Source of the DNA: Chloroflexota bacterium
GTDB lineage: Bacteria > Chloroflexota > Anaerolineae > Aggregatilineales > Phototrophicaceae
DNA: 40,920 bases
Assembly (NCBI GenBank): GCA_013388735.1
Contig: JACAES010000074.1
Location: 1 to 40,920 of the forward strand
Direction of reading: 5' to 3'
Numbering within the stretch: position 1 is the first letter of the stretch; each line of letters begins with the position of its first letter. Below the pieces are notes generated by a model. That model was not told the origin of the DNA and did no database searches. It saw only the letters and a program-made list of their open reading frames with translations. Below, in pieces: positions 7,273 through 28,733 of this stretch. A program made the translations under genes and the position numbers.

Positions 7273-8130
7273 ATGGACGATCAATCTGCCCCTGAGTTTT
7301 TCAGCAGCGACAGCGCCCCGGAAGACGCCGCAGCGGCGGGCGAGGCCGAACGCCGCCGCCTGGCCGACCTGCTGGAAAGCGAAATCATCAGCCCGTTGAA
7401 TTTGCTGCTGGCGCAGGCCGGCGCTTACGAACAAACCCTGGCCGCCAACCCGCAGGCGCACGTGGCTGTATCGGTGCTGGCGAACCTGACGCGCCAGCTT
7501 TTGCAGCAGGCGCGCGACCTGAAGAACAACCTGCGCCCGGCGCTGCTGGAAACGCTGGGACTCGAACCGGCGTTAGAGGCGCTGGCCGCCCAGGTGGCGC
7601 GCGCGTCCGGCCTGCCGGTGACGCTGCTGCTGGAACGCCAGCGCGAACGGCTGCCGCTGCCCATCGAACTGGCGCTCTTTCGCGCCGTGCAGGATATGCT
7701 CGACCGCGCCGTTCATGGGGGACGCGCGACGCGGGCGGTTATCCGGCTGGAACGCCGCGAACAAACGCTGACGCTGACCCTGGCCGACAACAGCCTGCCT
7801 CATACCGACACCGGCGGGCTGCGTGCATCGCTGGCGCGCATCGAGCAGCTTGGCGGTCAGGCCGAAGAACGCGCCGGGCGGGAAGGCAACTTTGAACTGG
7901 AAATTCGCTTTTTTTTCGCCCCGGCGGTCGAACTCACCGCCCGCGAGGTGGAAGTCATCCAGCGGCTGGCTGAGGGACTGACCAATAAGGAAATCGCCCG
8001 CGCGTTGAAGGTTTCCGCCCGCACCGTCAATTTTCACCTGGACAACATTTACGCCAAGCTGGGCGTCAGCACGCGCACCGAAGCGGCGGTGTACGCGCTG
8101 CGCCGGGGCTGGGCGCGGCGTCCCGGTTAA
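7273..8130 (+). CDS. LuxR-type transcription regulator with degenerate histidine-kinase-like sensor (285 aa)
   Basis: The C-terminal residues 219-280 are a clear LuxR/NarL helix-turn-helix: LTAREVEVIQRLAEGLTNKEIA, then VSARTVNFHLDNIYAKLGV. Upstream, residues 26-95 resemble the dimerisation helices of NarX/DesK-type kinases, including LRPALLETLGLEPALEALA, and residues 130-212 resemble their ATPase domain. However, the usual phospho-accepting histidine is absent (ERRRLADLLESE), the N-box asparagine is replaced (QDMLDRAVHGG), and the DxGxG motif is replaced by ADNSLP. It should not bind ATP or autophosphorylate. I infer a DNA-binding regulator that uses a dead kinase module for dimerisation or ligand sensing. 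The ATG at 7273 is chosen over 7228 because the shorter form starts the natural acidic N-terminus. CpaF follows after 97 bases. Confidence 0.85.
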   Translation: MDDQSAPEFFSSDSAPEDAAAAGEAERRRLADLLESEIISPLNLLLAQAGAYEQTLAANPQAHVAVSVLANLTRQLLQQARDLKNNLRPALLETLGLEPALEALAAQVARASGLPVTLLLERQRERLPLPIELALFRAVQDMLDRAVHGGRATRAVIRLERREQTLTLTLADNSLPHTDTGGLRASLARIEQLGGQAEERAGREGNFELEIRFFFAPAVELTAREVEVIQRLAEGLTNKEIARALKVSARTVNFHLDNIYAKLGVSTRTEAAVYALRRGWARRPG

Positions 8131-8227
8131 ACAGACAGGCATGGCGCTGGTCGTCTGCCCGTTCTGCCCGGTCGCGAGTCCCGCGATAATCAGATTAACG
8201 ATTGAATTGAGTGTGAAAGGCGCGATC

Positions 8228-9403
8228 ATGGACAATATTCATCCTCAACACGGCACAGACCTGGGGCCGCTGGAGCCGCTCCTGGCCGACCCGGACGTGA
8301 TGGAAATTTTAGTGAACGGCCACGACCATATTTACGTCGAGCGGCGCGGCAAACTGGAGCGTGTCGAAAGCCACTTCCGCGACGAGGCGCACCTGATGCA
8401 GATCATTCAGTACATCGTGGGAATGGTCGGCCAGCGCGCCGACGAATCCAACCCGATTGTGGACGCGCGGCTGGCGGACGCTTCCCGCGTGCATGTGGTC
8501 GTGCCGCCCATCGCCCTCACCGGGCCGAGCCTGACCATCCGCAAGCTGTACAACCGCCCCATCACCATCGAAAACCTGATCGAATGGGGAAGCATTTCTG
8601 CCGATATGGTCGAATTCCTGCGCGCCTGCGTCCAGGCGCGGGTGAACATGGTGATTTCCGGCGGAACAGGGTCGGGCAAAACGACGCTGATGAACGTGCT
8701 GTGCGGTTTCATCCCCGCCGACGAACGGCTGGTCGTGCTACAGCAGGACGCCGAACTGCGCCTGCCGCAGGAACATCAGGTGGTGCTGGAAACGCGCCCG
8801 CCCAACCTGGAAGGCCGGGGCGAAGTGACCATGCGGCAGCTTGTGCAGAGCGCCGTCAAGATGCGCCCCGACCGCATCATCATGGGTGAACTGCGCGGCG
8901 GCGAGGCGCTGGACATGCTGCAAGCCATGAACACCGGCCACGACGGCTCGATGGTGACGCTGCACGCTTCCAGCCCGCGCGACGCGCTGGCGCGCCTGGA
9001 AATGATGGCCCTGATGGGCGGGATGGACATGCCGGTGCGCACCCTGCGCGAACAGATGGCGAGTGCGATCAACCTGATCGTGCAGATTGAGCGGCTTCAG
9101 GACGGCGGTCGCCGCCTCGTCAAAGTGACGGAAGTGCTGGGCGCGCACGGCGATGTGATCGCCACCCAGGACATCTTTGAATTTATCGTCACAGGCGTCA
9201 AAGAGGGCGGCAAACTGGTCGGTGAGTTCGTCTCCAACGGCCACGTGCCGACTTTCATCCAGCGCATCCAGGCGGCGGGCGTCCGGCTGCCGGCAGCCAT
9301 GTTCACCCCCACGCGGGATTTCACCCATCCTCTGCCGCCCATCCCCCCCCTGCCGCCGATTCCACCTGTGCCGCCGATTCCACCTGTGCCGCCGCGCCGT
9401 TAA
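8228..9403 (+). CDS. cpaF: CpaF/TadA-family type II/IV secretion ATPase (391 aa)
   Basis: This is a secretion-superfamily ATPase of the CpaF/TadA group, which powers Tad-type pilus assembly from the cytosolic face. It shows an N-terminal domain with DPDVMEILVNGHDHIYVERRG in two parts, RLADASRVHVVVPP, a Walker A GGTGSGKTT (145-153), a Walker B region RIIMGELRGGEALDML (about 216-231), and the His box TGHDGSMVTLHA (236-247). The ATG at 8228 has AAAGG upstream and begins at the expected residue. The C-terminus carries an unusual proline tail made of PPIPP/PPVPP units, encoded by near-identical 18-base repeats (9341-9397). No tadB, tadC, prepilin or secretin gene is nearby, so it is an orphan here. 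Confidence 0.9.
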   Translation: MDNIHPQHGTDLGPLEPLLADPDVMEILVNGHDHIYVERRGKLERVESHFRDEAHLMQIIQYIVGMVGQRADESNPIVDARLADASRVHVVVPPIALTGPSLTIRKLYNRPITIENLIEWGSISADMVEFLRACVQARVNMVISGGTGSGKTTLMNVLCGFIPADERLVVLQQDAELRLPQEHQVVLETRPPNLEGRGEVTMRQLVQSAVKMRPDRIIMGELRGGEALDMLQAMNTGHDGSMVTLHASSPRDALARLEMMALMGGMDMPVRTLREQMASAINLIVQIERLQDGGRRLVKVTEVLGAHGDVIATQDIFEFIVTGVKEGGKLVGEFVSNGHVPTFIQRIQAAGVRLPAAMFTPTRDFTHPLPPIPPLPPIPPVPPIPPVPPRR

Positions 9404-9417
9404 CGCTGAAAATGCCT

Positions 9418-9705
9418 GACACAAAGGCGCAAAGAGGCAAAAAACGCAGAGAATCGTGTAGGGGCGAGGCTGTAACCTCGCCCAAACGGGAAAAGACTCA
9501 ACACAGAGTCGCAAAGGTTCAGAGACTCAGAGAGAAAAAACGCAACGCAAAGACACAAAAAACGCAGAGAATCGTCTGGGGGTGCGCCGATGTGCGCGCC
9601 CGGCATTGGCTGGTGCAATGCGCCGGGGCGTGGCTGTAGGGACGCGCATCAGCGCGTCCTTGCTGGTGCAATGCGCCGGGGCGTGGCATAGTAGGGGCAA
9701 GGTTT
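9418..9705. repeat. Intergenic repeat cluster between cpaF and the heptose kinase gene
   Basis: The 334-base gap holds no gene. CAAAAAACGCAGAGAATCGT occurs at 9438-9457 and again at 9556-9575. A 26-base direct repeat starting GCTGGTGCAATGCGCC lies at 9609-9634 and 9662-9687. Three short hairpins, each starting at a GTAGGG edge, occupy 9457-9483 (GGGCGAGG/CCTCGCCC), 9636-9659 (GGACGCG/CGCGTCC) and 9690-9705 (GGCAA/TTGCC). The 'ACAAAGGCGCAAAGAGGC' type of tract is a low-complexity sequence found between genes in many large bacterial genomes, and a similar one lies at 40355-40370. Spacing is irregular, so this is not a CRISPR array. Confidence 0.7.
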
Positions 9706-9737
9706 GCCACCGTTTGCACTCGAAAGCCGGATGATTC

Positions 9738-10730
9738 ATGACCGAACGACTCAAATCCTGGATACCCCGACTGGCCGACCAGCGCATCGTCGTGATCGGC
9801 GACGTGATGCTGGACGAATACCTGATTGGCCGGGCTACCCGCCTCAGCCGCGAAGCGCCCGTGCCGGTGCTGGAGTTCGAGTCGCGCCAGATCATTCCCG
9901 GCGGCGCGGCCAACCCCGCCGCCAACATCGTTGCGCTGGGCAGCACAGCGGTGCAGGTCGGCGTCATCGGCTCGGATACCGCCGGGACGACGCTGCGCCA
10001 GGTGCTTCAGGCGCGCGGCATTGATACCAATTCGCTGGTGGTAGACTCCGGCAGGCCGACGACCGTCAAAACGCGCATCATGGCGCAGATGGGGCTGCGT
10101 TTCCCGCAGCAGGTGGCGCGGCTGGATACACTCTCGCGGGAGCCGGCCGGCGCGGCGGTCGAGCGCCAGGTGCGCGCCGTGATTGACCGGCAGATTCAGG
10201 GCGTGAACGCCGTCCTCCTGTCCGATTATCATGTTGGGCTGCTGACGCCTTCGCTGGTTTCTACGGTGCGGAAGTTGTGCGCCGGGACGCTGTTAACCGC
10301 CGACGCGCAGGGCAATCTGGACAAATACGCCGGCTTCGCGCTGGTGAAGTGCAACGCCGACGACGCCCGCGATTATCTGCGGCGCGACCTGCGCGCGGAC
10401 ACCGATTTTGCCGATGCCGCGCTGGAACTGTGCCGCGCGCTGCGGCTGGCGGGCGGCATGGTCATCACGCGCGGGTCGGCAGGTGCGACGGTGGCGACCC
10501 CGGACGGCAGCGCCGCTCACTGCCCCGCGCCTGCCGTGAGCGACGTATACGATGTGGTCGGCGCGGGCGATACGGCCATCGCCGTCATGACGCTGGCGAT
10601 CAGCGCCGGTGCCAGCTACCCGGACGCTGTGACCCTGGCGAACTATGCCAGCGGCCTGGTGGTGCGCCGCGTGGGCAACTACACCCCCAGTCCCGACGAG
10701 CTGGCCTGGGCGATTGACACCTGGGGTTAA
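9738..10730 (+). CDS. PfkB-family sugar kinase, heptose-7-phosphate kinase-like (330 aa)
   Basis: This is a ribokinase/PfkB-fold kinase most like the N-terminal half of HldE (RfaE), which phosphorylates D-glycero-D-manno-heptose 7-phosphate at C1 in ADP-heptose synthesis. Marks are GDVMLDEYLIG (21-31), REAPVPVLEF, PGGAANPAANI (54-64), LLSDYHVGLLT (160-170) and the catalytic DVVGAGDTA with GAGDT at 275-279. Length equals a kinase domain alone; the nucleotidyltransferase half of HldE is missing, as in split HldA/HldC systems. Together with the GT9 domain at 3.2-5.0 kb it hints at heptose-containing surface glycans, but specificity within PfkB kinases is hard to call. A TTGACA (10714-10719) in its last codons may serve the next genes. 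Confidence 0.8.
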   Translation: MTERLKSWIPRLADQRIVVIGDVMLDEYLIGRATRLSREAPVPVLEFESRQIIPGGAANPAANIVALGSTAVQVGVIGSDTAGTTLRQVLQARGIDTNSLVVDSGRPTTVKTRIMAQMGLRFPQQVARLDTLSREPAGAAVERQVRAVIDRQIQGVNAVLLSDYHVGLLTPSLVSTVRKLCAGTLLTADAQGNLDKYAGFALVKCNADDARDYLRRDLRADTDFADAALELCRALRLAGGMVITRGSAGATVATPDGSAAHCPAPAVSDVYDVVGAGDTAIAVMTLAISAGASYPDAVTLANYASGLVVRRVGNYTPSPDELAWAIDTWG

Positions 10731-12902: not shown

Positions 12903-13859
12903 TTGAGCGAAGCACCCATACCAGAAATCGAACCCACCCCGGAATTCAACGCCCGCTGTCTGGCGATCATCCAGGAATGGCAGAGCGGCGATTTACCTTT
13001 TCCCGAAGCCAACCAGCGTTTAGCCGCCCTGGAACGAGAAGCCATCAGCACCGGCCACGTGGTCAATCAGGGGCGGGTGGAGCAGCTTCTAGGATACATG
13101 AAAGGTTATCGCGGCGACCTGAACGCCGCCATCTATCACTACGAACGCGCCCGTGCGCTCTACAACCTGGCCGGTAATCAGCGGCGCGTCGCCATCTGCG
13201 ACCTGAACATGGGCGAGGCGTTTCGCTATAAAGGCGACTTCAAACGTGCCCGCCTGCTGTTTGAAAAAGCCTACCAGACCTTTAGAGCCGTCGGCGACCA
13301 GGGCAGCGAGGCGATGGCGATTGGCAATAAAGGACAGATGCACCTGAGCATGGGCCAGTTGGATACCGCCCGCGCCGACCTGGAGGAAAGCTGTCGCATC
13401 GCCCGCCAGCTTTCTGACAGTGATCTGGACCGCAATGGGCAGTTGTGCGAGGTTCATCAGGCATTGGCGCTGCTGCATCTCAAATCCGGCGATACGGCGG
13501 CGGCCTGGCGCGAAGCGCACCAGGCTTACCAGATTGCCGACCAGACAGGGCAGCCGCTCGAACAGGGCTTCGCCAACCGCGCCATCGCCGAGGTGCTGAC
13601 GGCCATCGGAGACGCGCCGGAAAACGGTTTTTCGTCCGACCCGGACGCTTATTATCAGGCGTCCAGCGAAGCCTTTGCCGAAATCAACGCCGAGGGCGAG
13701 ATCGCCCGCACCATGTTTGCTCAGGCGATCAGCCTGGCGCGGCGGGGACGCCGCATGACCGCCGCCCGCAAGCTGCAACTGGCGATGAGCATCTTCACCC
13801 GGCTGGGCATGGTAGACGACGCCGCCAAAGCCGCCGAAGCGCAGCTCGAAGTGCTGTGA
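12903..13859 (+). CDS. Tetratricopeptide-repeat protein (318 aa)
   Basis: This is an all-helical cytosolic protein with about five TPR units between residues 40 and 230, for example GDLNAAIYHYERARALYNLAG, then GDFKRARLLFEKAYQTFRAVGD, then GQLDTARADLEESCRIARQL (each unit read separately). The order of units resembles TPR regions of AfsR/MalT-type regulators, but no DNA-binding or NTPase domain is attached, so it is likely a scaffold. The start is TTG at 12903, with GAGGA five bases upstream and no nearby ATG; its promoter is visible at 12839-12867. The last 40 bases of the gene recur exactly, inverted, at 27185-27224. Confidence 0.82.
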   Translation: MSEAPIPEIEPTPEFNARCLAIIQEWQSGDLPFPEANQRLAALEREAISTGHVVNQGRVEQLLGYMKGYRGDLNAAIYHYERARALYNLAGNQRRVAICDLNMGEAFRYKGDFKRARLLFEKAYQTFRAVGDQGSEAMAIGNKGQMHLSMGQLDTARADLEESCRIARQLSDSDLDRNGQLCEVHQALALLHLKSGDTAAAWREAHQAYQIADQTGQPLEQGFANRAIAEVLTAIGDAPENGFSSDPDAYYQASSEAFAEINAEGEIARTMFAQAISLARRGRRMTAARKLQLAMSIFTRLGMVDDAAKAAEAQLEVL

Positions 13860-14017
13860 CCTGAAACGCGCCGGACGCGCAGCAGCACGTCCCCGCGACC
13901 ATTGATTTTGAAGCGACTGCCCCGCCGCTTCTGTTAAAGCTTTTTTAATTCCCGCCCTTTAGCGGTATACTCCCCGCCAATTCACCGGACTTCGATACCC
14001 GAACACTGAGGACGCTT

Positions 14018-15560
14018 ATGGATGACTCCTCTCGACCGGTTGTGCTGGAAGCGCGCGGCCTGACCAAACGGTTTCCTGGCGTGCTGGCGAACGATCATAT
14101 CAATCTTCAGCTTCGTAAGGGGCAGGTGCTGGGGCTGCTGGGCGAAAACGGCGCCGGCAAAAGCACGCTGATGAACCTGATCTACGGCCTGTACGCGCCC
14201 GACGAAGGCGAAATCCTGGTCAACGGCCAGGTCGCCCACATCCAAGACCCCAACGACGCCATCGCGCTCGGCATCGGCATGGTACACCAGCATTTTCAAC
14301 TGGTGCCGGTGCTGACCGTGACCGAAAACGTCATGCTGGGTAACGAAGCTGTGCGCGGGCCGTTCCTCGACCGCCGCGCTGCCCAAAAACGCATCCTGGA
14401 AATTTCGACCCAGTACGGCCTGGAAGTAGACCCGGACGCCCTGGTGCAGGATTTGCCGGTCGGCGTGCAGCAGCGGGTGGAGATCATCAAGGCGCTGTAC
14501 CGCAAAGCCGATATTTTGATCCTCGACGAACCCTCGGCGGTGCTGACGCCGCAGGAAACCGAGGGCCTGTTCGACATCATGCGGTCGCTGCTGGCGCGCG
14601 GCGTCAGCATCATCTTCATCTCGCACAAGCTCAAAGAAGTGCTGGAAATCTGCGACGAAATCGTCGTGCTGCGGCAGGGGCGCGTGGTCGGCAGCGCCGA
14701 CCCGAAAACCTCGACCGAAGAATCGCTGGCGGCCATGATGGTCGGGCGCGAGGTGATCTTGCAGGTGGAAAAAGGTCCGCCCCATCTGGGCGAACCGGTC
14801 ATCACCCTGCACGACCTGTGGGTGCGGGATGACCGCGATCTGCCGGCGCTCAAGGGCGTTTCGCTGGAAGTGCGCGGCGGCGAAATCCTGGGCGTGGCCG
14901 GGGTGCAGGGCAACGGCCAGACCGAACTGGTGGAGGCCATCACCGGGCTGCGCAAGGTGGAAAGCGGGCAGATCGTCATCCAGTACCGGGACGTGACCAA
15001 CGCCCGCCCGCGCCGCGTGACCGAAAGCGGCGTTTCTCACGTGCCGGAAGACCGCCAGAAAAACGGCATGGTCGCCACCTTCCCGATTAAGGATAACCTG
15101 GTGCTGCAAACCTACTACATCGGCCCGTTCAGCATCGGCATCCTCGCCAACGAACGCGCCAAAGAGGAAAATGCTCACCGGCTGGTGAAGCAGTACGACG
15201 TGCGGACGCCGAGCATCTTCGTTAATATGAGTACGCTTTCCGGCGGAAACCAGCAGAAGGCCATCGTCGCCCGCGAGTTCTCGCGCCAGAGCCGCCTGCT
15301 GATCGCCGCCCAGCCCACGCGCGGCCTGGACGTGGGTTCGATTGAATTCATTCATAAACAGATCGTGGCGATGCGCGACGCGGGCATCGCCGTGCTGCTG
15401 GTTTCGACCGAACTGGACGAAATCTTCTCGCTGTCCGACCGGATTGCGGTGATGTACGCGGGCAGGATCATTGATATCGTGCCAGCCGGGGAAGCCACCC
15501 GCGAGTCTATCGGCCTGCTGATGGCGGGCATCAAACGCGACAAGGAGGAGGCCGTAACGC

Positions 15561-15568
<8 letters not shown>
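14018..15568 (+). CDS. Nucleoside-type ABC transporter ATP-binding protein (516 aa)
   Basis: A duplicated ABC ATPase of the sugar/nucleoside class (NupO/YufO-like). The first domain has Walker A GENGAGKST (42-50), GMVHQHFQLVPVLTV, signature LPVGVQQRVEI and Walker B ILILDEPSAVLTP. The second has the usual degenerate Walker A (VAGVQGNGQTEL), VPEDRQKNGMV and a good signature LSGGNQQKAIVAREFSR. The HFQLVP Q-loop wording is typical of the BMP-dependent guanosine/nucleoside importers. GAGGAC precedes the ATG, and a TATACT lies at 13966-13971. It overlaps the first permease by eight bases (15561-15568). The gene for the substrate-binding BmpA-like lipoprotein is not in this window. Confidence 0.92.
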
Positions 15569-17795
<2,227 letters not shown>

Positions 17796-21301: not shown

Positions 21302-22267
21302 GTGGCCGCTCAAACCGTTTCTTCGCGCCGGTCGCGCCTGCGGCTGGCACTGCAAAACCCGCGCTGGCAGCCGGTCATTTATGCCGAAGTCGGCGGGCTG
21401 ATTCTGCTGGCGTTGACGCTGCTGCCGGGCGGCTTCGACTACCTGCACTTTTTCCACAAGGTCGCGCAGGGCTGCGTGACCTGCGCCTACAACCCGTATT
21501 ATCTGGAGTGGTTTTTGCGCCCGCTGGGGCTGCTGCCCTGGCGCGCGGCTTATCTGCTGCTGGCGGCGCTGACGATGCTGGGCGGCTGGTGGGCGGCGCG
21601 GCGGCTGGGCGGCAGCCCGTTCATCGCGCTGGTTTCGCCGGCTTTCCTGTGGATTCTGTGGCTGGGGCAGATTGACATCGTGCCGGCTTTTGGCCTGGCG
21701 CTGGCCTGGTGGAGTACGGAGCGGCAGAAGCCGCTGCTGGCCGGGTTCGGCCTGCTGCTGCTGGCGACCAAACCACAGCTTGGCGCGTTCGCCATCCTGG
21801 CGCTGGCGCGGTGGAACGGGCCGAAGGCGCTCATCATCCCGGCCCTCGGCGCGGCGGCCAGCTTTTTAATCTACGGCCTGGACTGGCCGCAGCGATGGCT
21901 GGGTTACACGCCGCAGACGGTTTTCGGCGGGGACGCCTGGTTTTATATCGCGCCGATCTGGCTGCTGGCCGGGCTGGTGGGCGTGTTTTTCGTGCGCGGG
22001 CGGCGGGAACAGCTTCAGTACATCGTCGCAGCCACGCTGTCCGGCGCGCCGTTCCTGGGGGCGTACTCGTTTTTTGTGCTGACTTTTTTCCCGCTGCGCC
22101 GGTGGGAGATCGCCGCCGCCTATCTGCCCTTCGCGCTGATGGGGCTGACCGGCAGCCAGTGGTGGCTGGGGCTGCTGCTGGCGCAGCCGCTGCTGGTGAT
22201 GGCGCGTCTACTGTGGGAAAACGGCCAGGTGCCGGCTTTCCTCGCACATCTCCGACCTGCCCCATAA
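21302..22267 (+). CDS. GT87/DUF2029-like polytopic membrane protein (321 aa)
   Basis: About eight hydrophobic segments span the protein. The pattern resembles GT-C fold lipid-linked sugar mannosyltransferases of the GT87 (DUF2029) group: a first extracytoplasmic loop with YNPYYLEWFLRPLGLLPW, then FLWILWLGQIDIVPAFGLAL and LLATKPQLGAFAI, where the 'GQ.D' and 'KPQ' elements are typical. It should use polyprenol-phosphate sugars on the outer face of the membrane. It starts with GTG directly after the trmB TAA, with AAGGA inside the trmB end, so the two are coupled. Its 3' end sits 22 bases before the first WD40 repeat copy. Confidence 0.75.
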   Translation: MAAQTVSSRRSRLRLALQNPRWQPVIYAEVGGLILLALTLLPGGFDYLHFFHKVAQGCVTCAYNPYYLEWFLRPLGLLPWRAAYLLLAALTMLGGWWAARRLGGSPFIALVSPAFLWILWLGQIDIVPAFGLALAWWSTERQKPLLAGFGLLLLATKPQLGAFAILALARWNGPKALIIPALGAAASFLIYGLDWPQRWLGYTPQTVFGGDAWFYIAPIWLLAGLVGVFFVRGRREQLQYIVAATLSGAPFLGAYSFFVLTFFPLRRWEIAAAYLPFALMGLTGSQWWLGLLLAQPLLVMARLLWENGQVPAFLAHLRPAP

Positions 22268-22288
22268 GCCGTCTGAACCGCTGTTGAA

Positions 22289-22440
22289 CGACATCTTCAG
22301 GGGCGCGGGGTTCGGTGGAGAGTATTAGCATCGGCTGTGGGTAGTGTGCGCTACCCATCCACCACGCCCCACAGCCGGACGGTGCCGTCCGTGCCGCCGG
22401 ACGCCAGCAGCGTGCCATCGGGACTGAAGGCGAGACTTGT
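22289..22440. repeat. 152-bp WD40-tail direct repeat, copy A
   Basis: This copy and the one at 23991-24142 are the same length and differ at only a handful of positions, mostly around the stop codon. On the minus strand it encodes the last WD40 blade (DGTLLASGGTDGTVRLWGVV), the stop codon at 22351, and about 60 bases downstream. It is GC-rich and host-like, unlike the rest of the propeller gene. Copy A lies at the outer, downstream edge of the mosaic island next to the GT87-like gene. Confidence 0.9.
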
Positions 22441-23439
22441 AATTGCTCCTTTAGGAACCTCAAGCATGATCAATTCCTCTCCAGTTTCGACATCATAAAT
22501 TTTGATCATGCCAGCATTTGTAACTGAAGGTCCTCCATCGGAGCGCCGAATTGATTTGAAATAACCGACAGCGAGAAGAGATTCATCAGGGTTAAGAGCC
22601 ACTTGTGTTATTGACTCGCCTTCATTAATAACGACTAGATTACGAACTACGGCATCAGTAGCAGATGTTGAATCTAGGAGTTCCACACCTTGTTCACTGA
22701 TGCAAAATAAGACCTGCATTTTAGTCTCGAACAGTAGATCACCATATGTTGCGTTACATCCTGAATATGTTTCAGTCAGTTCATGTGTTCGTGTGTTCCC
22801 CACATACACTTGACCAGTTCCCGAAGCGAGGTCAACTGTGGAGAAAAATACGACTTCTCCGCTTTCGTTAAAAGTCATTCCACGACCATAAACATCAGCA
22901 GAATTGGGGGGTAAGGAAGCAACCTCCTCACCTGACACCAAATCGAAAAGTTGAAATGCATACTCCCTCTCAGCGACGATCTCAGAAACACCGAAAGTCG
23001 CTCCTAGATAAGCATTATCTGGACTGATGGCAATATCGTTTACGACATCAACACTGGTATGGATTGTCGAAATCTGCTCCCATTGTGAGGTGTTATAGAC
23101 GATTATTTCGCCCTGCCCCGTGCCAAGTGCAAAGCGAGAACCATCAGGGCTGAACGTAAAGGCTGTCGCCTTTGCAAATTGGTCAGAGGGGATTTCGTTG
23201 AGAGTGTTTTCGTCTAGTGGAACAATATCGCCAGCAAGTCCCTCAAAGCGGTTTAGCCGTATGATAAAAAGGTCGCCGCTAGCGGGTTGAAATGTCAAGT
23301 CACGTATGATGGTTTCTTCATACGTTCGGCTTTGAACTTCACTCAGTTCCTGTGCATTTTCAGTCGTGATTCGCTCACGCTCAGTTTGAGGGTAAACGAA
23401 CGATAGACTGAATAGGAAGACAAGCCAAGCAAATCTCAT
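22351..23439 (-). CDS. Secreted WD40 beta-propeller protein B (362 aa)
   Basis: The N-terminus MRFAWLVFLFSLSFVYPQ is a signal peptide. It is followed by ITTENAQELSEVQ, a start common to Chloroflexota WD40 proteins. Blades are diverged, with FSPDGSRFALGTGQGEIIVYN, ISPDNAYLGATFGV and NPDESLLAVGY recognisable, and a perfect final blade SLAFSPDGTLLASGG. The protein is probably exported and binds partners; no enzyme motif is seen. The body is AT-rich, whereas the last 30 codons are GC-rich and nearly identical in DNA to the other propeller. The ATG lies three bases after the stop of a truncated peptidase-like gene, so it may be translated by coupling. Confidence 0.82.
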   Translation of the reverse strand: MRFAWLVFLFSLSFVYPQTERERITTENAQELSEVQSRTYEETIIRDLTFQPASGDLFIIRLNRFEGLAGDIVPLDENTLNEIPSDQFAKATAFTFSPDGSRFALGTGQGEIIVYNTSQWEQISTIHTSVDVVNDIAISPDNAYLGATFGVSEIVAEREYAFQLFDLVSGEEVASLPPNSADVYGRGMTFNESGEVVFFSTVDLASGTGQVYVGNTRTHELTETYSGCNATYGDLLFETKMQVLFCISEQGVELLDSTSATDAVVRNLVVINEGESITQVALNPDESLLAVGYFKSIRRSDGGPSVTNAGMIKIYDVETGEELIMLEVPKGAITSLAFSPDGTLLASGGTDGTVRLWGVVDG

Positions 23440-23442
23440 GAA

Positions 23443-24033
23443 TTATTCTCCGACAATCATCGGAAGATCGGTAGCAGCGTAGTTTCTGGACGGGTTCATA
23501 ATCGTTGTAGTGATTTGATTCTGCTGATTCAAAGCCGATGGATTATGTTGAAGTCCATTCGATGCAACCCAGACAAGACGGTTTTCCTGATCCACGACTA
23601 ACAACCAATAGGTTGATACACCATCCGATAGAGTTCCACCAGCATCTAACCAGCCATATATCTCTACAGTATTGGGAAATTCAGGATCACTCGTTGATCC
23701 AATTTCGGTCACTGACAGCTCTTGCGGCACTGATCGGACACTGTAGCCTGTGCTCGTCTTAGTCGCACTGGTCACGCTCGTCTGCGGGATCACGCCCTCA
23801 TCCTTATAAAACTGCACCATGCCGCCTGGATAGTTGTAAATCACGGCGTTCCGCAGGAACATCCCGATACGCCGGGTGCTACCCTCAAAAAAGTCCTGCC
23901 AGGCATCCCCTTTTGCGCCCTCAAACGCGCCGCGCACCCAATTGAGGAACGAGTCGGCAGTGATTTCAGACCGGCGGGTAAAATCAAAGCCGACATCTTC
24001 AGGGGCGCGGGGTTCGGTGGAGAGTATTAGCAT
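23443..24033 (-). CDS. Truncated zincin-like protein, C-terminal part only (196 aa, probable gene remnant)
   Basis: From its residue 24 on it matches the C-terminal third of the peptidase-like protein at 25186-26949: ADSFLNWVR against ADSFMNWVR, then WQDFFE/WQNFFE, FLRNAVIY/FMRNATVY, EGVI/NGVI, IYGW, WLLV and RLVWVASNG/RLAWVVSSG. The HELGH region and everything before it are missing. The first 14 residues (MLILSTEPRAPEDV) come from the tail of the 152-bp repeat, so the 5' end was replaced at the repeat junction. No ribosome binding site precedes the ATG at 24033, although the WD40 stop is 19 bases upstream. Roughly the first half is GC-rich and the end AT-rich. A relict gene is the simplest reading; a small secreted or coupled product is possible. 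Confidence 0.6.
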   Translation of the reverse strand: MLILSTEPRAPEDVGFDFTRRSEITADSFLNWVRGAFEGAKGDAWQDFFEGSTRRIGMFLRNAVIYNYPGGMVQFYKDEGVIPQTSVTSATKTSTGYSVRSVPQELSVTEIGSTSDPEFPNTVEIYGWLDAGGTLSDGVSTYWLLVVDQENRLVWVASNGLQHNPSALNQQNQITTTIMNPSRNYAATDLPMIVGE

Positions 24034-24142
24034 CGGCTGTGGGTAGTATGCACTATTCGCCCACCACGCCCCACAGCCGGACGGTGCCGTCCGTGCCGCC
24101 GGACGCCAGCAGCGTGCCATCGGGGCTGAAGGCGAGACTTGT
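23991..24142. repeat. 152-bp WD40-tail direct repeat, copy B
   Basis: Second copy of the repeat at 22289-22440, same orientation, 1702 bases apart start to start. On the minus strand it holds the final blade and stop codon (24053) of the propeller at 24053-25129, and then runs 43 bases into the truncated peptidase-like frame. The sequence after the stop, coding in that frame for LILSTEPRAPEDV, is shared by both copies. Divergence starts sharply at both ends of the 152 bases. Confidence 0.9.
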
Positions 24143-25129
24143 GACCCATTCATCATGTCCATTTAAAATAACTAATTCTTTACCCGTTTGTGCGTCCCAC
24201 AGATAAATTTCGCCGTTCTGTCTATTTCCTAGCGCAATGATGTTTCCATCAGGGCTAAATGTGCCCGTCCATATCATGCCATGAGAATTCTCTATTTGTA
24301 GAGTTACTTCTCCATCTACCGTTAACTCAGCTAGACGGTTCGGTTGTAGGCCATCTAAGGATTCAATGCTAATCAAGATCGTACTCTTGTCGGGCGACAC
24401 TGCAAGTGGCACAATAAAGAAACGGAATTGCGACGGATCTAGGTCTAGTATATTATCAAGTTGAATTTGCTTCAAAAGATCGCCATTTTTCGTATCTCTA
24501 AATTCCAGTGTGTATCCTTTTCGGGCGATAACATTTAGTTCACCATCAGCACTTAAGATCGCATATTCGGCAGATGTAGATTCGTCAAATCCAAAACCCT
24601 TTTCAAATATTGCTTTCCCTGATTCTGCATTCCATCGTGCTAAACCGCCATTTTGAGCAAATACGGCTACAACTTCGTTTCTGTCTGTGGGAAAAGCAAT
24701 ATCAGCTATCCACCGTACATTAGTTTGGGAAGGGGTGGATAACTCGATCCATTCATTGCTATTCGAAACACTCCACAAGTACAAACCATAATTGATACTC
24801 GCCGCGATTCGTTCACCGCTAGGGTTGATGCTCAATTGAGAGCCATTTGTAATAGGAAGCCGCCAAAGCGTTTGTTGTTCGTTTATATCCCAAACGCTAA
24901 GGGTTGTACTGGATGTGTAAGCAATTATATTTTGGCCTGAGCTGAAGACTACTTCACCAATTACGGTTTCCTCTTTGGCAATTTCTGTTAGCTCACGAAC
25001 CTTAGATGCATTGGTTATCGAGATGACTTTAAGCGCTTCAGTCCAAAGTAATTCAAATCGCTTTGCTTGAACACTATCCAAACATAAAAGATAAATGAGC
25101 GAGAAGAGGCACAAGACCTTTGAAATCAT
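24053..25129 (-). CDS. Secreted WD40 beta-propeller protein A (358 aa)
   Basis: MISKVLCLFSLIYLLCLDSVQA is a signal peptide with a plausible AxA-type cleavage. The mature part has six to seven diverged blades (INPSGERIAASINYGLYLWS, LSADGELNVIARKG, VSPDKSTILISIES, FSPDGNIIALGNRQNGEIYLW) and the same exact last blade as protein B. The gene body is markedly AT-rich with A/T-ending codons; the composition switches to GC-rich at about 24142, where the 152-bp repeat starts. No catalytic residues are seen. It follows the zincin-like gene by 56 bases and could pair with it. Confidence 0.82.
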   Translation of the reverse strand: MISKVLCLFSLIYLLCLDSVQAKRFELLWTEALKVISITNASKVRELTEIAKEETVIGEVVFSSGQNIIAYTSSTTLSVWDINEQQTLWRLPITNGSQLSINPSGERIAASINYGLYLWSVSNSNEWIELSTPSQTNVRWIADIAFPTDRNEVVAVFAQNGGLARWNAESGKAIFEKGFGFDESTSAEYAILSADGELNVIARKGYTLEFRDTKNGDLLKQIQLDNILDLDPSQFRFFIVPLAVSPDKSTILISIESLDGLQPNRLAELTVDGEVTLQIENSHGMIWTGTFSPDGNIIALGNRQNGEIYLWDAQTGKELVILNGHDEWVTSLAFSPDGTLLASGGTDGTVRLWGVVGE

Positions 25130-25185
25130 TACAATACTCCATCTTTAGAATTTTAACTATTCAATTGAAGTCGTTAACGAAAAAC

Positions 25186-26949
25186 TCATGAGCCAGTGAA
25201 ATTGGCTACAAGTAATCCTAGAATTGTACACAAATCAGCAGGAGAAAACTCCCTTCCGGGGTCTAACGGATTAACATCGAGAATCCGATTGCCCAGGGGC
25301 GGGGGATTATCTATAAGATCGTTGGCTTCATTGACATCCATGCCTGACGAAACTACCCACGCTAGACGTTTTCCATCGGACGATATACTGTCTACCAATA
25401 GCCATTTGGTCATAGGTGTCCCCCCTTCCCACCAACCATATATTTTTGATTGGAGTGGATCCCGACCGGAAATTGGTGCGGATCCAATGAGTGCATCGCT
25501 CACCGTTGGATCTGGGATGAGCCTCAAATTGGGCCATTCTGGATCTCCAATGAAGTTTCTAATTTCAGTTTGAGTTGCTCGAATGACACCATTTTGAATG
25601 TAGTGCGTTGACATACCATTTCGATATACGGTAGCATTTCGCATGAACTTACCAATGGTTACCTCAAAGAAATTTTGCCAGTCTGCACCTTTTGTACCTG
25701 TAAATGAGTTACGTACCCAATTCATGAATGAATCGGCAACAAGTTCCCTGATTTTGACGTCGTCGCTATCACTGCTTGGAGGCCAATTCTGAACAAAAAT
25801 GTCCACTCGTGCGCGTAGGCCGTACATGTTGTATGAAGAGTTCCATAATGCAAAATTGGTGCCGAACAGATCGAATAGTAGATAATTATCGGGAGTAAGG
25901 TCTGGGTAGGTAGGGTTTAGCTTAGTAAAAATTGCAACTCCATTGTCATTGGAAATAACAGCGTGTTCAAAGTACAGTTGGTCATATATACCTTGAGGAG
26001 GCCTCAAGTATTCTGGTCCCAAACCATCACGGGTGTAGTCTGTGACAAGGGAAGTGTTTTGTAACGCTTGTTCTATACTTCCAATGAGAACTGTATCATA
26101 GCCTGTCGCACGTGTAAAAGAGTGTCCCAATTCGTGAATGAGGTTATTCGGCGTCATCACCCATTGGCGGTCCGCCCCCGGTTTGCGATAGACCCGGATC
26201 GTCGCGCCGGTCGTCAGCGCAACGTTATCCTGTTCCTCGGCGGCGTTCATCAACGTCATCTGCCCCATGATCCGCCGGAACAGGTCAAAGCGGCCCACGC
26301 TGCGGCACACCCCCTGCCGGACGATTTCGGCCTCAACCCAGCGTTCAAAGGCCTCGGCGGTCGCCTGTAGACCTAAATGCGCGAAGTGCAGCGAGACTGC
26401 TCCCCAGGCGGATGCGCCGCTCTCGGTAGAAAACGTAACGCCGAAAGCAGTTTGTATCGCGGTTTTGTAGTTGTTGAGCGGGGTAGCGATGACCGGGTCG
26501 ATTTCGGCAGCAGTCGGATTATTCTGAAGGGCGGTTTTGAGCGCGGCGAAGGCGGTATCCAGGTTGTGCTGATATTCGGCTTCTTCAACGCAAGCTGAGC
26601 AGAAGGGATTGACGCCTGTGCCAAACAGCTTCAAACCAAGCAAACGCAGTGTCGGTTGTTGACTTTCATATTGGCCGATTCCCAGACCGCTCATCTGCAG
26701 GCTTCCTTCCCAGACATAGGGCGGCTCTCCGTTGGGTACCGGGGTAAAGCTCTTGAAATACAAGGATGTGCTTAACCGGCTGGTAGGTGAATGATTGGCA
26801 TACAGCCTCACCCAACAGCCGTAGGGATCGCAGAATGGGCCGTCTGTGGATGCGCGCAGCTCAATGCGAGTAAGGGTGACTGTCGTGCCAAATGAGCGGC
26901 TGATCTCGTTGGCGCTGTCAGGGCCTCCTTCTGGTTGGTAATAACCCAT
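25186..26949 (-). CDS. Zincin-type metallopeptidase-like protein, probably 5'-disrupted (587 aa from first in-frame ATG after an amber codon)
   Basis: The protein contains NNLIHELGHSF with HELGH at residues 272-276, the zinc-binding HExxH motif of zincins, and RELVADSF, whose E402 could be the third ligand. An N-terminal beta-rich part (SRSFGTTVTLTRIELRAS) resembles secreted carbohydrate- or surface-binding modules. However, the frame continues upstream through a TAG (26992-26994) to an ATG at 27061-27063, which has a strong GAGGAGG site; no such site precedes 26949. Either this is a pseudogene with one nonsense codon or the shorter form is made poorly. No signal peptide is present. DNA for residues 1-263 is GC-rich and host-like; from just before HELGH it turns AT-rich. 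Confidence 0.65.
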   Translation of the reverse strand: MGYYQPEGGPDSANEISRSFGTTVTLTRIELRASTDGPFCDPYGCWVRLYANHSPTSRLSTSLYFKSFTPVPNGEPPYVWEGSLQMSGLGIGQYESQQPTLRLLGLKLFGTGVNPFCSACVEEAEYQHNLDTAFAALKTALQNNPTAAEIDPVIATPLNNYKTAIQTAFGVTFSTESGASAWGAVSLHFAHLGLQATAEAFERWVEAEIVRQGVCRSVGRFDLFRRIMGQMTLMNAAEEQDNVALTTGATIRVYRKPGADRQWVMTPNNLIHELGHSFTRATGYDTVLIGSIEQALQNTSLVTDYTRDGLGPEYLRPPQGIYDQLYFEHAVISNDNGVAIFTKLNPTYPDLTPDNYLLFDLFGTNFALWNSSYNMYGLRARVDIFVQNWPPSSDSDDVKIRELVADSFMNWVRNSFTGTKGADWQNFFEVTIGKFMRNATVYRNGMSTHYIQNGVIRATQTEIRNFIGDPEWPNLRLIPDPTVSDALIGSAPISGRDPLQSKIYGWWEGGTPMTKWLLVDSISSDGKRLAWVVSSGMDVNEANDLIDNPPPLGNRILDVNPLDPGREFSPADLCTILGLLVANFTGS

Positions 26950-26991
26950 CCATCCGACGGTTTTTTCCCAGGTGGATTTCCGGACGGGTGT

Positions 26992-27063
26992 CTATCGGTT
27001 GGGTGGAGCGACAAACTCGCCGTTACATTTGGTGAAATCAAACGCATGGCACCAGCCGGCCAT
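26992..27063 (-). pseudogene. Interrupted 5' end of the zincin-like gene (23 codons, then TAG)
   Basis: On the minus strand CTGAGGAGGCAGACACG precedes the ATG at 27061-27063, an excellent ribosome binding site. The product would be MAGWCHAFDFTKCNGEFV and five more residues, then TAG at 26992-26994. The same frame goes on directly as TPVRKSTWEKTVGWMGYYQP into the 587-residue protein. The W-C-x-x-F-D-F start followed later by GW looks like the opening strand of a secreted beta-sandwich module, so both halves belong to one domain. In-frame TAA further upstream excludes a signal peptide, so the true 5' end was probably lost. Confidence 0.6.
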
Positions 27064-27184
27064 CGTGTCTGCCTCCTCAGGTGGTTGTTATTTTATAAGT
27101 ACCATAAAGGAGGCAGAAGAACAACTGGACAGGTTTTTTACGAAGGTATTTCGTTGGGTAATCGCCGGTTGGGCAGGGGTATTT

Positions 27185-27287
27185 ACAGCACTTCGAGCTG
27201 CGCTTCGGCGGCTTTGGCGGCGTCGGCTGTGGGTAGTGTGCGCTATTCGCCCACCACACCCCACAGCCGCACCGTGCCATCATCCAA
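27185..27287 (-). pseudogene. Concatenated 3'-end remnants of a WD40 gene and a TPR gene
   Basis: On the minus strand, directly after the ammonium transporter stop, the bases read DDGTVRLWGVVGE and a TAG. This is the last WD40 blade, a third and partial copy of the island repeat. After CACTACCCACAGCC, 40 bases (27185-27224) are identical to the last codons of the TPR gene at 13818-13857, coding DAAKAAEAQLEVL and a stop. Neither piece has an upstream body. The region 27064-27184 between these relics and the zincin-like gene has no recognisable gene. Confidence 0.75.
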
Positions 27288-28733
27288 TCAATCCCCCGTC
27301 GCCGGGGCGCTGACCGGGGAACCGCCCGGCATCATCATATCGCCGTCGCCCACCGGCAGCACGTCCGGCCACAGGCTCGCGCCGTGTTCGTATACGTCAA
27401 TGCCGATTTCATCGGCTTTCGGGTTAACACGCAGCCGGCCAATCGCCTTCAGCGCCAGGAACATCACGCCCGCCGTCGCGCCCACCCAGATGATGGTCGC
27501 CACCGAGCCAATCGCCTGATTAATAAGCATATCCACGCCGCCGCCCATCAGCAGGCCGCCGACGCCGTTGGTCAGTTCCGGCTGCCCAAACAGGCCGATC
27601 GCCAGCGTGCCGAAGATGCCGCACGCGCCATGAACCGCGAACGCGCCCACCGGGTCGTCAATCTTCAGCGACTCGATCAGGTCTACCACCAGGATCACCA
27701 GCACCCCCGCCACCAGGCCGATGAGAACCGACGCCCAGGGGACAACAAAAGCGCAGCCGGCCGTGATGCCCACCAGCCCGGCCAGCGAGCCGTTGAGCGT
27801 CATGCCCAGGTCCCATTTGCCGCTGCGCGCATAGCTGAAGAACATGGCCGCCACTGCCCCCGCCGAGGCCGCCAGTGTGGTATTAACCGTCACCAGGCCG
27901 ATCAGTCCGGGGTTGCCGGTGCCGAGCGTCGAGCCGGGGTTGAAGCCGTACCAGCCGAACCACAGCACCATCGTGCCGAGCGTCGCCAGCGCCAGGTTAT
28001 GCGGGCGCGGCATCTGCCCGAAAACGCGGCCAGGGCGCGGGCCGAGCAGAATTGCGCCCGTCAGCGCCATCACGCCGCCGACCGTATGCACAACGGTGCT
28101 GCCGGCGAAATCGTAAAAACCGCGCTGGAACAGCCAGCCGCCGCCCCATACCCAATGCACCACCACCGGGTAGATGACCGCGCCGGCGATCACGCTGTAG
28201 ATGATGTCTCCGATGAAATCGGTGCGTTCGGCCATCGCGCCAGTGGCGATGGTGCTGGCGGTAGCCGCGAAGGCGAACTGGAAGAAAAACAGCGTGAACA
28301 CGCTCAAGCCCGTGCCGCCGTAAACCACGCTGCCGTTTTCAAAGCTGATCGCGTTGCTGAGGAAGAAGTTGTCCGTGCCGAACAGACCGCTGCTGTGCGG
28401 CGTGCCGAACGCGATGGCGAAGCCGACCGCCCAGAAGGCCAGGCCGGTCAAACCGGCGTCTATGAAGTTTTCCAGCAGGGCGTTAACGACTCCGGTATGA
28501 CGGATAAAACCGGCTTCCAGCATGGCGAACCCACACTGCATGAAAAAAACCAGGAAACCGGCGATCAGCACCCAGGTCGTATCAATCGAAACCTGCAAGC
28601 CGGCGGCAGTCGCTTCCAGCACATCCGACGTAACCGCGTCCTGCGCGCCGACCGACGGCGCGAAGACAGCCAGCACCAGCGCGCCGAACGCAATCGCCAG
28701 CAAACGCCGCCACAGCCGATTTTGCTTATTCAT
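27288..28733 (-). CDS. amtB: Ammonium transporter (481 aa)
   Basis: This is an Amt/Mep/Rh channel, a trimeric inner-membrane protein that conducts ammonium/ammonia. An N-terminal signal peptide (to SVGAQ) precedes eleven membrane segments. Family motifs include FFMQCGFAMLEAGFIR, GAMAERTDFIGDIIYSV, VVHTVGGVMALTGA with the first pore histidine, FGWYGFNPGS, and FAVHGACGIFGTLAIG with the second. GGGAGG lies upstream of the ATG at 28733. No glnK (P-II) gene is adjacent, although Amt and GlnK are usually linked. The stop codon is immediately followed by the WD40 remnant, so the normal downstream region has been replaced. Confidence 0.95.
   Translation of the reverse strand: MNKQNRLWRRLLAIAFGALVLAVFAPSVGAQDAVTSDVLEATAAGLQVSIDTTWVLIAGFLVFFMQCGFAMLEAGFIRHTGVVNALLENFIDAGLTGLAFWAVGFAIAFGTPHSSGLFGTDNFFLSNAISFENGSVVYGGTGLSVFTLFFFQFAFAATASTIATGAMAERTDFIGDIIYSVIAGAVIYPVVVHWVWGGGWLFQRGFYDFAGSTVVHTVGGVMALTGAILLGPRPGRVFGQMPRPHNLALATLGTMVLWFGWYGFNPGSTLGTGNPGLIGLVTVNTTLAASAGAVAAMFFSYARSGKWDLGMTLNGSLAGLVGITAGCAFVVPWASVLIGLVAGVLVILVVDLIESLKIDDPVGAFAVHGACGIFGTLAIGLFGQPELTNGVGGLLMGGGVDMLINQAIGSVATIIWVGATAGVMFLALKAIGRLRVNPKADEIGIDVYEHGASLWPDVLPVGDGDMMMPGGSPVSAPATGD

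Follow-up and report, generated by a model that had tools for sequence, protein, structure and literature searches.

Why should two neighboring genes share the DNA of their last part almost completely and differ widely in everything before it? The question is raised by a 5,061-bp island in contig JACAES010000074.1 of a Chloroflexota bacterium (assembly GCA_013388735.1, family Phototrophicaceae), which is located at positions 22226-27286 of the 40,920-nucleotide stretch analyzed here (the window), between amtB and a GT87-like gene. The island carries a main zincin-like gene with a variable C-terminal tip, an orphan copy of this end with a different tip, and two genes (WD40 A and WD40 B) for WD40 propellers with hydrophobic N-termini. 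We propose that it is probably a locus of the polymorphic-toxin type, built from a variable head, a zincin-like domain, an SH3b-like tip and a secreted WD40 partner, with orphan cassettes that are swapped. Sequence comparison establishes the layout, the shared ends around different bodies, the linkage between tip and WD40 gene, the decoupling of both from the head, and the empty sites in relatives.

Shared ends and different bodies

The DNA identity between WD40 A and WD40 B is 96% in the last blade and 41% in the body. The same contrast extends to a second array at another locus in a genome of the same genus (G015, JAIUNI010000007.1, 'Chloroflexi bacterium isolate ANAER1'). Among the six WD40 genes of the window and G015, the bodies are 36-51% and the last blades 78-96% identical in DNA; in the proteins, the last ~26 residues are near-identical and the bodies share 17-43%. 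The GC content at third codon positions (GC3) is 0.69-0.96 in the last blade and 0.32-0.38 in the body in all six genes. Within the island, GC3 changes in steps inside the open reading frames (ORFs), namely in the main zincin-like gene beside HELGH (26139), in WD40 A (24136), in the orphan tip (23706) and in WD40 B (22416), and these steps were equaled by 0, 0, 1 and 0 of 500 shuffled orders, respectively. Controls gave weak steps, which were reached by 30 of 500 shuffles for amtB, 22 for GT87 and 52 for the main gene of G015. The segments of low GC (zincin end, tip and WD40 body) are those that were exchanged, with the high-GC ends serving as handles.

The minus-strand order of tail remnant, zincin-like gene, WD40 A, zincin remnant and WD40 B, first described in a sequence-only reading of this DNA, was recovered unchanged. 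The features are as follows.

27288-28733, minus: flanking amtB (ammonium transporter; PF00909, 386.8 bits)
22226-27286, no strand: island, absent from three relatives
27220-27281, minus: WD40 3'-tail remnant, a DNA match to the tail copies, directly past the amtB stop
27185-27228, minus: copy of the 3' end of the gene at 12903-13859 (plus), 97.7% over 44 bp to the gene of G006
26992-27063, minus: short start MAGWCHAFDF..., with AGGAGG in front and an in-frame TAG
25186-26949, minus: main zincin-like gene, 587 aa (HELGH at 272-276, E402-x-x-A-D406, SH3b-like tip from about residue 437)
25189-25641, minus: variable SH3b-like C-terminal tip of the main gene (A3 profile positions ~531-609 find SH3 proteins)
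24053-25129, minus: WD40 A, partner of the main tip (PF00400, 67.6 bits, cut-off 27; hydrophobic N-terminus)
23991-24142, minus: 152-bp repeat copy 2, 3' WD40 end and lead into the next cassette
23443-23988, minus: orphan zincin tip, E-x-x-A-D handle and SH3b-like tip (homologous part of ORF 23443-24162)
22351-23439, minus: WD40 B, partner of the orphan tip (PF00400, 62.7 bits; AlphaFold2 model)
22289-22440, minus: 152-bp repeat copy 1, WD40 B tail and cut-off start of a further cassette
26139 (0.67 to 0.39), 24136 (0.36 to 0.93), 23706 (0.68 to 0.37) and 22416 (0.38 to 0.95), minus: GC3 steps
21302-22267, plus: flanking GT87-like gene (PF09594, 30.6 bits, cut-off 25)

The 152-bp repeat comprises 90 nt of 3' WD40 coding sequence including the stop, followed by 62 nt leading into the next zincin remnant. 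Its two complete copies were found where they had been reported, with seven mismatches (95% identity). The partial upstream tail also exists, but at 27220-27281, slightly off the 27240-27287 given for it; it is 89% identical to the copy at 24030-24091 and 85% to the copy at 22289. The border on the amtB side is as sharp as had been claimed, with amtB ending at 27288 and the remnant starting within 10 bases. A repeat search of the 4.27-Mb assembly gave nine matches at E ≤ 0.001, three of them in the island; the other six (30-76 nt, 72-90% identity, the best 81% over 63 nt) are as expected from other WD40 genes.

The repeat part at 22289-22350 suggests that the array was cut off within a further cassette. 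At the island border (27185-27228), 41 bp are identical to 13817-13857, possibly a trace of the former site of the array. Together, this gene-end copy and the border cutting into the start of a further cassette suggest a once longer array that was later trimmed. The GC content is 0.482 for 22289-27219 and 0.619 for the whole window. For an empty-site comparison, four genomes were taken from the 14 others that match amtB at E ≤ 1e-60. The distance between the aligned ends of amtB and GT87 is 216 bp in G006 (flanks 92% identical), 105 bp in G013 (with no more than 41 bp on the GT87 side, where the contig ends) and 202 bp in G008; the contig of G005 stops within amtB and is uninformative on the site. 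Because these three relatives have an empty site, the window genome most likely acquired the 5,061 bp.

Co-movement of tip and WD40 gene

The array of G015 holds four cassettes: a 621-aa zincin-like protein with its WD40-1 comes first, and three orphan tips follow, all paired with a WD40 gene of their own. A near-identical short spacer (one copy is off by one base) stands after each of the three internal WD40 stops and leads into the same beginning of the handle DNA, which in the main gene encodes the E-x-x-A-D helix. An internal stop interrupts one of the three orphan tips; the WD40 frames are open in all four cassettes. The orphan pair of the window has its nearest match, for both tip and WD40, in the main pair of G015 (cassette 1), with 52% (tip) and 43% (WD40) identity, compared with 33% and 25% to the main pair of the window itself. 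Orphan tip cassettes beginning at a conserved handle number one in the window, three in G015 and two in L041, a locus of a sister genus. For WD40 genes linked to orphan tips, the ratio of nonsynonymous to synonymous substitution rates (dN/dS) is 0.33-0.36 in two comparisons, so that these genes are apparently kept for use.

In the sister genus (g17, another genus of the same family), relatives of the zincin and tip have long heads, proline-rich in several. In a further 19 ORFs, the match to the zincin profile is confined to its head part (up to position 237 of 646), and the C-termini are M23-like, clear M23 (L104, 56.5 bits) or unrecognised. Heads and C-terminal ends part company in single comparisons as well. 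Between L035 and L037, the head is 83%, the tip 37% and the WD40 protein 49% identical, and between L037 and L039 the values are 40%, 66% and 71%. L041 carries the main cassettes of L035 and L037 again in orphan form, with tips 87% and 79% and their own WD40 proteins 82% and 71% identical. G096, G100 and G117 share one locus by NfeD/stomatin-like genes (by eye), which holds differing cassette sets (L041, L035 and L037). Different bodies on conserved ends, the pattern that had been proposed as the one to look for in related genomes, are thus present in the g17 cassettes and favor exchange; relatives carrying one invariant pair, or copies confined to this assembly, were not what the comparison returned. 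Among the M23-like partners of g17, the last blade is more conserved than the body in 31 of 36 pairs, and the five exceptions are close pairs (body 78-97%); unlike the window, these partners show no GC3 step. In L038, L041 and L044, an H-N-H-x-N motif resembling RadC/JAB (by eye) is located ahead of the zincin or M23-like domain.

The distances between tips are correlated with those between WD40 proteins in the window and G015 (Mantel r=0.72, 6/720 permutations), in the zincin set of g17 (r=0.97, 1/40,320) and in the M23-like set (r=0.875, 0/20,000), with permutation counts that are optimistic and not strict probabilities because the sequences within each set are related. The zincin set has eight pairs, leaving out L046, the second cassette of L035 (partial tip), tipless WD40 genes and the extra WD40 genes of L036 and L040; the M23-like set has nine, leaving out L044 (no downstream gene seen) and L104. 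For the 15 pairs of six full g17 proteins, the partial correlation is 0.96 for tip and WD40 given the head and -0.35 for head and WD40 given the tip, computed from rounded identity values and with the zincin domain counted as part of the head. At the sequence level, tip and WD40 gene therefore move together, decoupled from the head.

Putative toxin domains and propeller partners

HELGH and E-x-x-A-D are invariant in 8/8 full proteins, and we infer the role of the Glu. At the limits used, Pfam, PHROG and NCBIfam gave no match for the window's main zincin-like protein, and no second protein with its own head domain was found in the seven genomes searched. The tip resembles SH3b: in a search across the class, the tip part of the profile hits SH3 proteins, with SH3_3 above cut-off in 10/10 scanned, of 23 loci; the toxins themselves match weakly and below cut-off (SH3_3 at E 0.035 and 0.22 for two toxins of g17), and the window's toxin has no such match. 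WD40 B was modeled with AlphaFold2 (pLDDT 83.9, pTM 0.84) with 27 strands of at least three residues; the predicted structure identifies it with good confidence as a propeller, the strand number fitting seven blades, and the best PDB match is a bacterial WD40 domain. In PADLOC, the WD40 proteins match only HEAT-ARM_XIII (over the WD40 stretch), and the toxins have no match.

The gene next downstream is a WD40 gene above the PF00400 cut-off for 8/8 zincin main or orphan genes of g17, and a homologous propeller gene follows 9/9 M23-like genes with a visible downstream gene. Pfam scans covered 20 partner genes. Three of the nine M23-like partners exceed a curated WD40 cut-off, and the other six match propeller families below cut-off only. 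Propeller partners also stand behind two further warheads (L097:14248-15318, WD40 40.0 bits; L102, PD40 49.3 bits). TolB-like (PD40) propeller genes were seen downstream of two unrecognised warheads, at L102:6389-7714 and L101:3281-4522, so that propeller partners may be broader than WD40. In L040, two tandem WD40 genes identical in DNA (7624-8670 and 8827-9873) follow one zincin toxin. In L048, from another family of the order, a zincin-like domain (HEIGH...EEFADMFLHW) is fused behind a TolB-like propeller.

A strongly hydrophobic N-terminus was present in 13/13 WD40 proteins and in 0/6 toxins tested. In L036, an AHH-nuclease protein (25.7 bits, Pfam cut-off 22.3) stands beside the zincin toxin. 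It has no match to the zincin head profile; by BLASTP with the low-complexity filter off, its proline-rich start is common with L108 and L035 and its middle part with L099 and L100. The AHH toxin occupies 14254-16596 and its 184-aa downstream partner 13703-14257, and the adjoining zincin toxin has two WD40 genes. By eye, the AHH partner has no hydrophobic leader, and the partners of wall-type warheads have one. The leaders thus fit the location of the warheads, since AHH would act in the cytoplasm and wall-type warheads outside. A zincin fused to a putative Rhs-core end occurs in L047 (23.4 bits, below the cut-off of 32.5), with only 27 core residues on the contig.

Phage-tail genes adjoin two g17 loci tested (L035, phrog_9522; L040, phrog_10528), and none was seen beside the window array. 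Homologues of the toxin-adjacent tail-module protein of g17 occur elsewhere in G000 (L122, L123) and in G015 (L120, G015:C1); in L120, a 770-aa ORF with a LysM-like start occupies the position that the toxin has in g17 (by eye). In the window, the short start ends at TAG after 23 codons, and its counterpart in G015 (L017, 6281-6346) ends at TGA after 21. Both share M-x-x-W-C-H-x-F and an AGGAGG-like site, in the window a strong ribosome-binding site, and the long frame resumes past the stop. The in-frame stops may represent head decay in both species or recoding.

The main zincin relatives are found in a minority of g17 genomes, and the cases seen beyond the family, L047 and L048 among them, were all weak or partial; most of the compared genomes are fragmented. 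In a single scan of genome contigs, only the G015 record JAIUNI010000007.1 matched. Two wider searches are not counts of the system: the class search (31/396 genomes at E ≤ 0.001) gave mostly SH3-only matches, and the family search with A3 (16/98 genomes at E ≤ 1e-5) includes SH3-only and head-only genomes. No relatives of P0005 were found in 50,697 phage records or in plasmids, and the viral contigs held no relatives of P0005, of the tail pattern or of the toxin of L035.

A probable toxin locus weighed against other readings

In the mechanism that we propose, an orphan cassette combines the zincin domain's end with a different tip and the tip's own WD40 gene, and tip and propeller body are swapped as a single cassette through recombination between a 5' and a 3' handle. 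The 5' handle lies inside the zincin gene: in the window it is close to HExxH or in the early part of the tip, and in G015 and in the sister genus it is at the ExxAD helix. The 3' handle is the last WD40 blade. The zincin or M23-like domain may damage a wall or surface target of competing bacteria, the SH3b tip may dock the toxin domain, and the propeller, exported by its own signal, may bind the matching tip and protect the producer. Orphan pairs could be retained as an immunity store or as reserve tips, and delivery in the sister genus is probably tied to the neighboring phage-tail genes. Judged from its position, retention and matching, the secreted WD40 protein is the cognate partner of the tip and most likely an immunity protein. 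A more specific version is tentative: that docking tip and secreted WD40, not the warhead, are exchanged as a two-gene cassette with crossovers inside both ORFs and the last blade as the shared recombination anchor, and that the propeller, as a member of a WD40 immunity family, captures the tip or competes with it extracellularly.

Exchange of the Rhs/CDI type (CDI, contact-dependent inhibition), suggested by the sequence-only reading, is thus supported by conserved ends with different bodies, GC3 steps within ORFs, co-movement of tip and WD40 decoupled from the head, and empty sites. Its details changed. The conserved 3' tail is an exchange end, as proposed, but the second end lies inside the zincin gene, so that the exchanged unit is the C-terminal zincin tip plus the WD40 body in place of a whole peptidase with its propeller; and in place of a general diversification of secreted proteins, the likely role is that of a toxin tip with its cognate partner. 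The system is not wholly undescribed, being of polymorphic-toxin type, yet a WD40 protein in the immunity position and handles inside both genes are unusual.

Several points weigh against a toxin locus with WD40 immunity. Co-movement indicates a functional pair and not WD40 immunity as such, and linked vertical descent adds to it. The main zincin relatives are rare, occurring in 2/17 genomes of the genus, and no other case was found in 399 further genomes of the phylum sample at E ≤ 1e-5 (best candidates, up to three per genome). The zincin fold is unconfirmed by an AlphaFold2 model with pLDDT 37 (five sequences), and the only hit of a PDB sequence search with the zincin was to SH3b (E 0.31). 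The M23 label is likewise weak, since among seven scanned proteins one is above cut-off (L104), four are below and two are unmatched (L103 and L044), the remaining M23-like proteins being grouped by alignment. In the Pfam scan, the partners of L104 (the clear M23) and L109 matched neither a propeller nor any other family. Finally, an in-frame stop ends the short start in the window and in G015, so that the main toxin of either may be inactive.

If exchange is real, the WD40 protein could still be a co-secreted, tip-matched accessory, such as a receptor-binding or targeting subunit, a chaperone or an adhesin, and would then give the same picture. Its own hydrophobic N-terminus and its covariation with the tip would suit this role, propellers are general binding scaffolds, and umbrella particles, as far as described in the passages at hand, combine polymorphic toxin domains with diversified lectins (PMC13274773). 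We nevertheless regard it as unlikely: the WD40 gene directly follows the toxin, in the slot that the available text of PMC3482391 gives as the usual place of an immunity gene, orphan copies retain open WD40 frames, and other proteins fill the slot with other warheads (the 184-aa protein with AHH; in L105 and L101, proteins with an N-terminal hydrophobic stretch by eye). That the arrays diversify lysins or host-range proteins of phage tails or tail-like particles, and not toxin-immunity pairs, is improbable. The tail genes beside L035 and L040 and the lysin-like combination of M23 and SH3b speak for it; the zincin toxin of L036 with an AHH nuclease next to it, the putative Rhs-core end of L047, the lack of relatives in phage records and viral contigs and the window array with no tail genes seen beside it speak against it.

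Plain tandem duplication of a zincin and WD40 pair followed by decay, offered earlier as the sober alternative, would account for two tandem units with a truncated second zincin. It fails on the contrast between tails and bodies of the two units, on the closer similarity of WD40 B and its tip to cassette 1 of G015 than to WD40 A and its tip, and on the GC3 steps inside ORFs, and is largely refuted and very improbable. Least credible is an assembly chimera in one metagenome-assembled genome. The window genome is a 190-contig assembly with an abrupt GC change at the island, yet G015 has an independent array, and so do G096, G100 and G117 at a locus common to the three.

If the toxin-locus reading is right, a WD40 propeller family joins the immunity proteins, to our knowledge as the first, and zincin toxins gain a likely partner. 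No paper on WD40 immunity was found in searches of open-licence literature, which is weak evidence of absence. Since the WD40 protein follows the tip and not the head, the propeller is predicted to recognize the docking tip and not the active site. Matched pairs are available for study (six in the window and G015, eight zincin-type and nine M23-like in the sister genus), and such a series could show how propeller specificity changes while one blade stays nearly constant.

Among known systems, wall hydrolases of the lysostaphin type combine an M23 peptidase with a wall-binding SH3b domain, a make-up similar to the peptidase and SH3b found here; we know of none that has a WD40 partner or is polymorphic. 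Exported beta-propeller-like proteins that neutralize peptidoglycan hydrolases (Tsi1, XAC2610 and PliI-Ah) resemble the proposed partner in the passages available (PMC3391265, PMC10933484). Tsi1 is described there as a partial three-sheet propeller and not a WD40 protein (PMC3391265), compared with the 27 strands modeled for WD40 B, and the passages on Tse1/Tsi1-type pairs mention no exchange arrays. VgrG2b/PA0261 and Tpe1/Tpi1 likewise combine a gluzincin (HExxH and a later-helix Glu) that works in the envelope with an immunity protein located there (PMC6899460); they differ in delivery by the type VI secretion system and in the immunity protein, and the parts consulted mention neither an SH3b tip nor a cassette array. 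In the corresponding parts of the 2012 survey, the table of zincin toxins (Tox-MPTase1-5) gives no immunity protein, and the immunity proteins are without propellers (PMC3482391). As outlined in the same parts, CDI and Rhs systems share with the present arrays a constant head, a changeable C-terminus, a co-moving cognate downstream gene, arrays of standalone tip cassettes and recombination at the 3' end of the toxin gene (PMC3482391). Unlike in those systems, the partner here is a WD40 propeller with a hydrophobic leader, and because the 3' handle lies inside the partner gene, in the last WD40 blade, both genes are chimeric.

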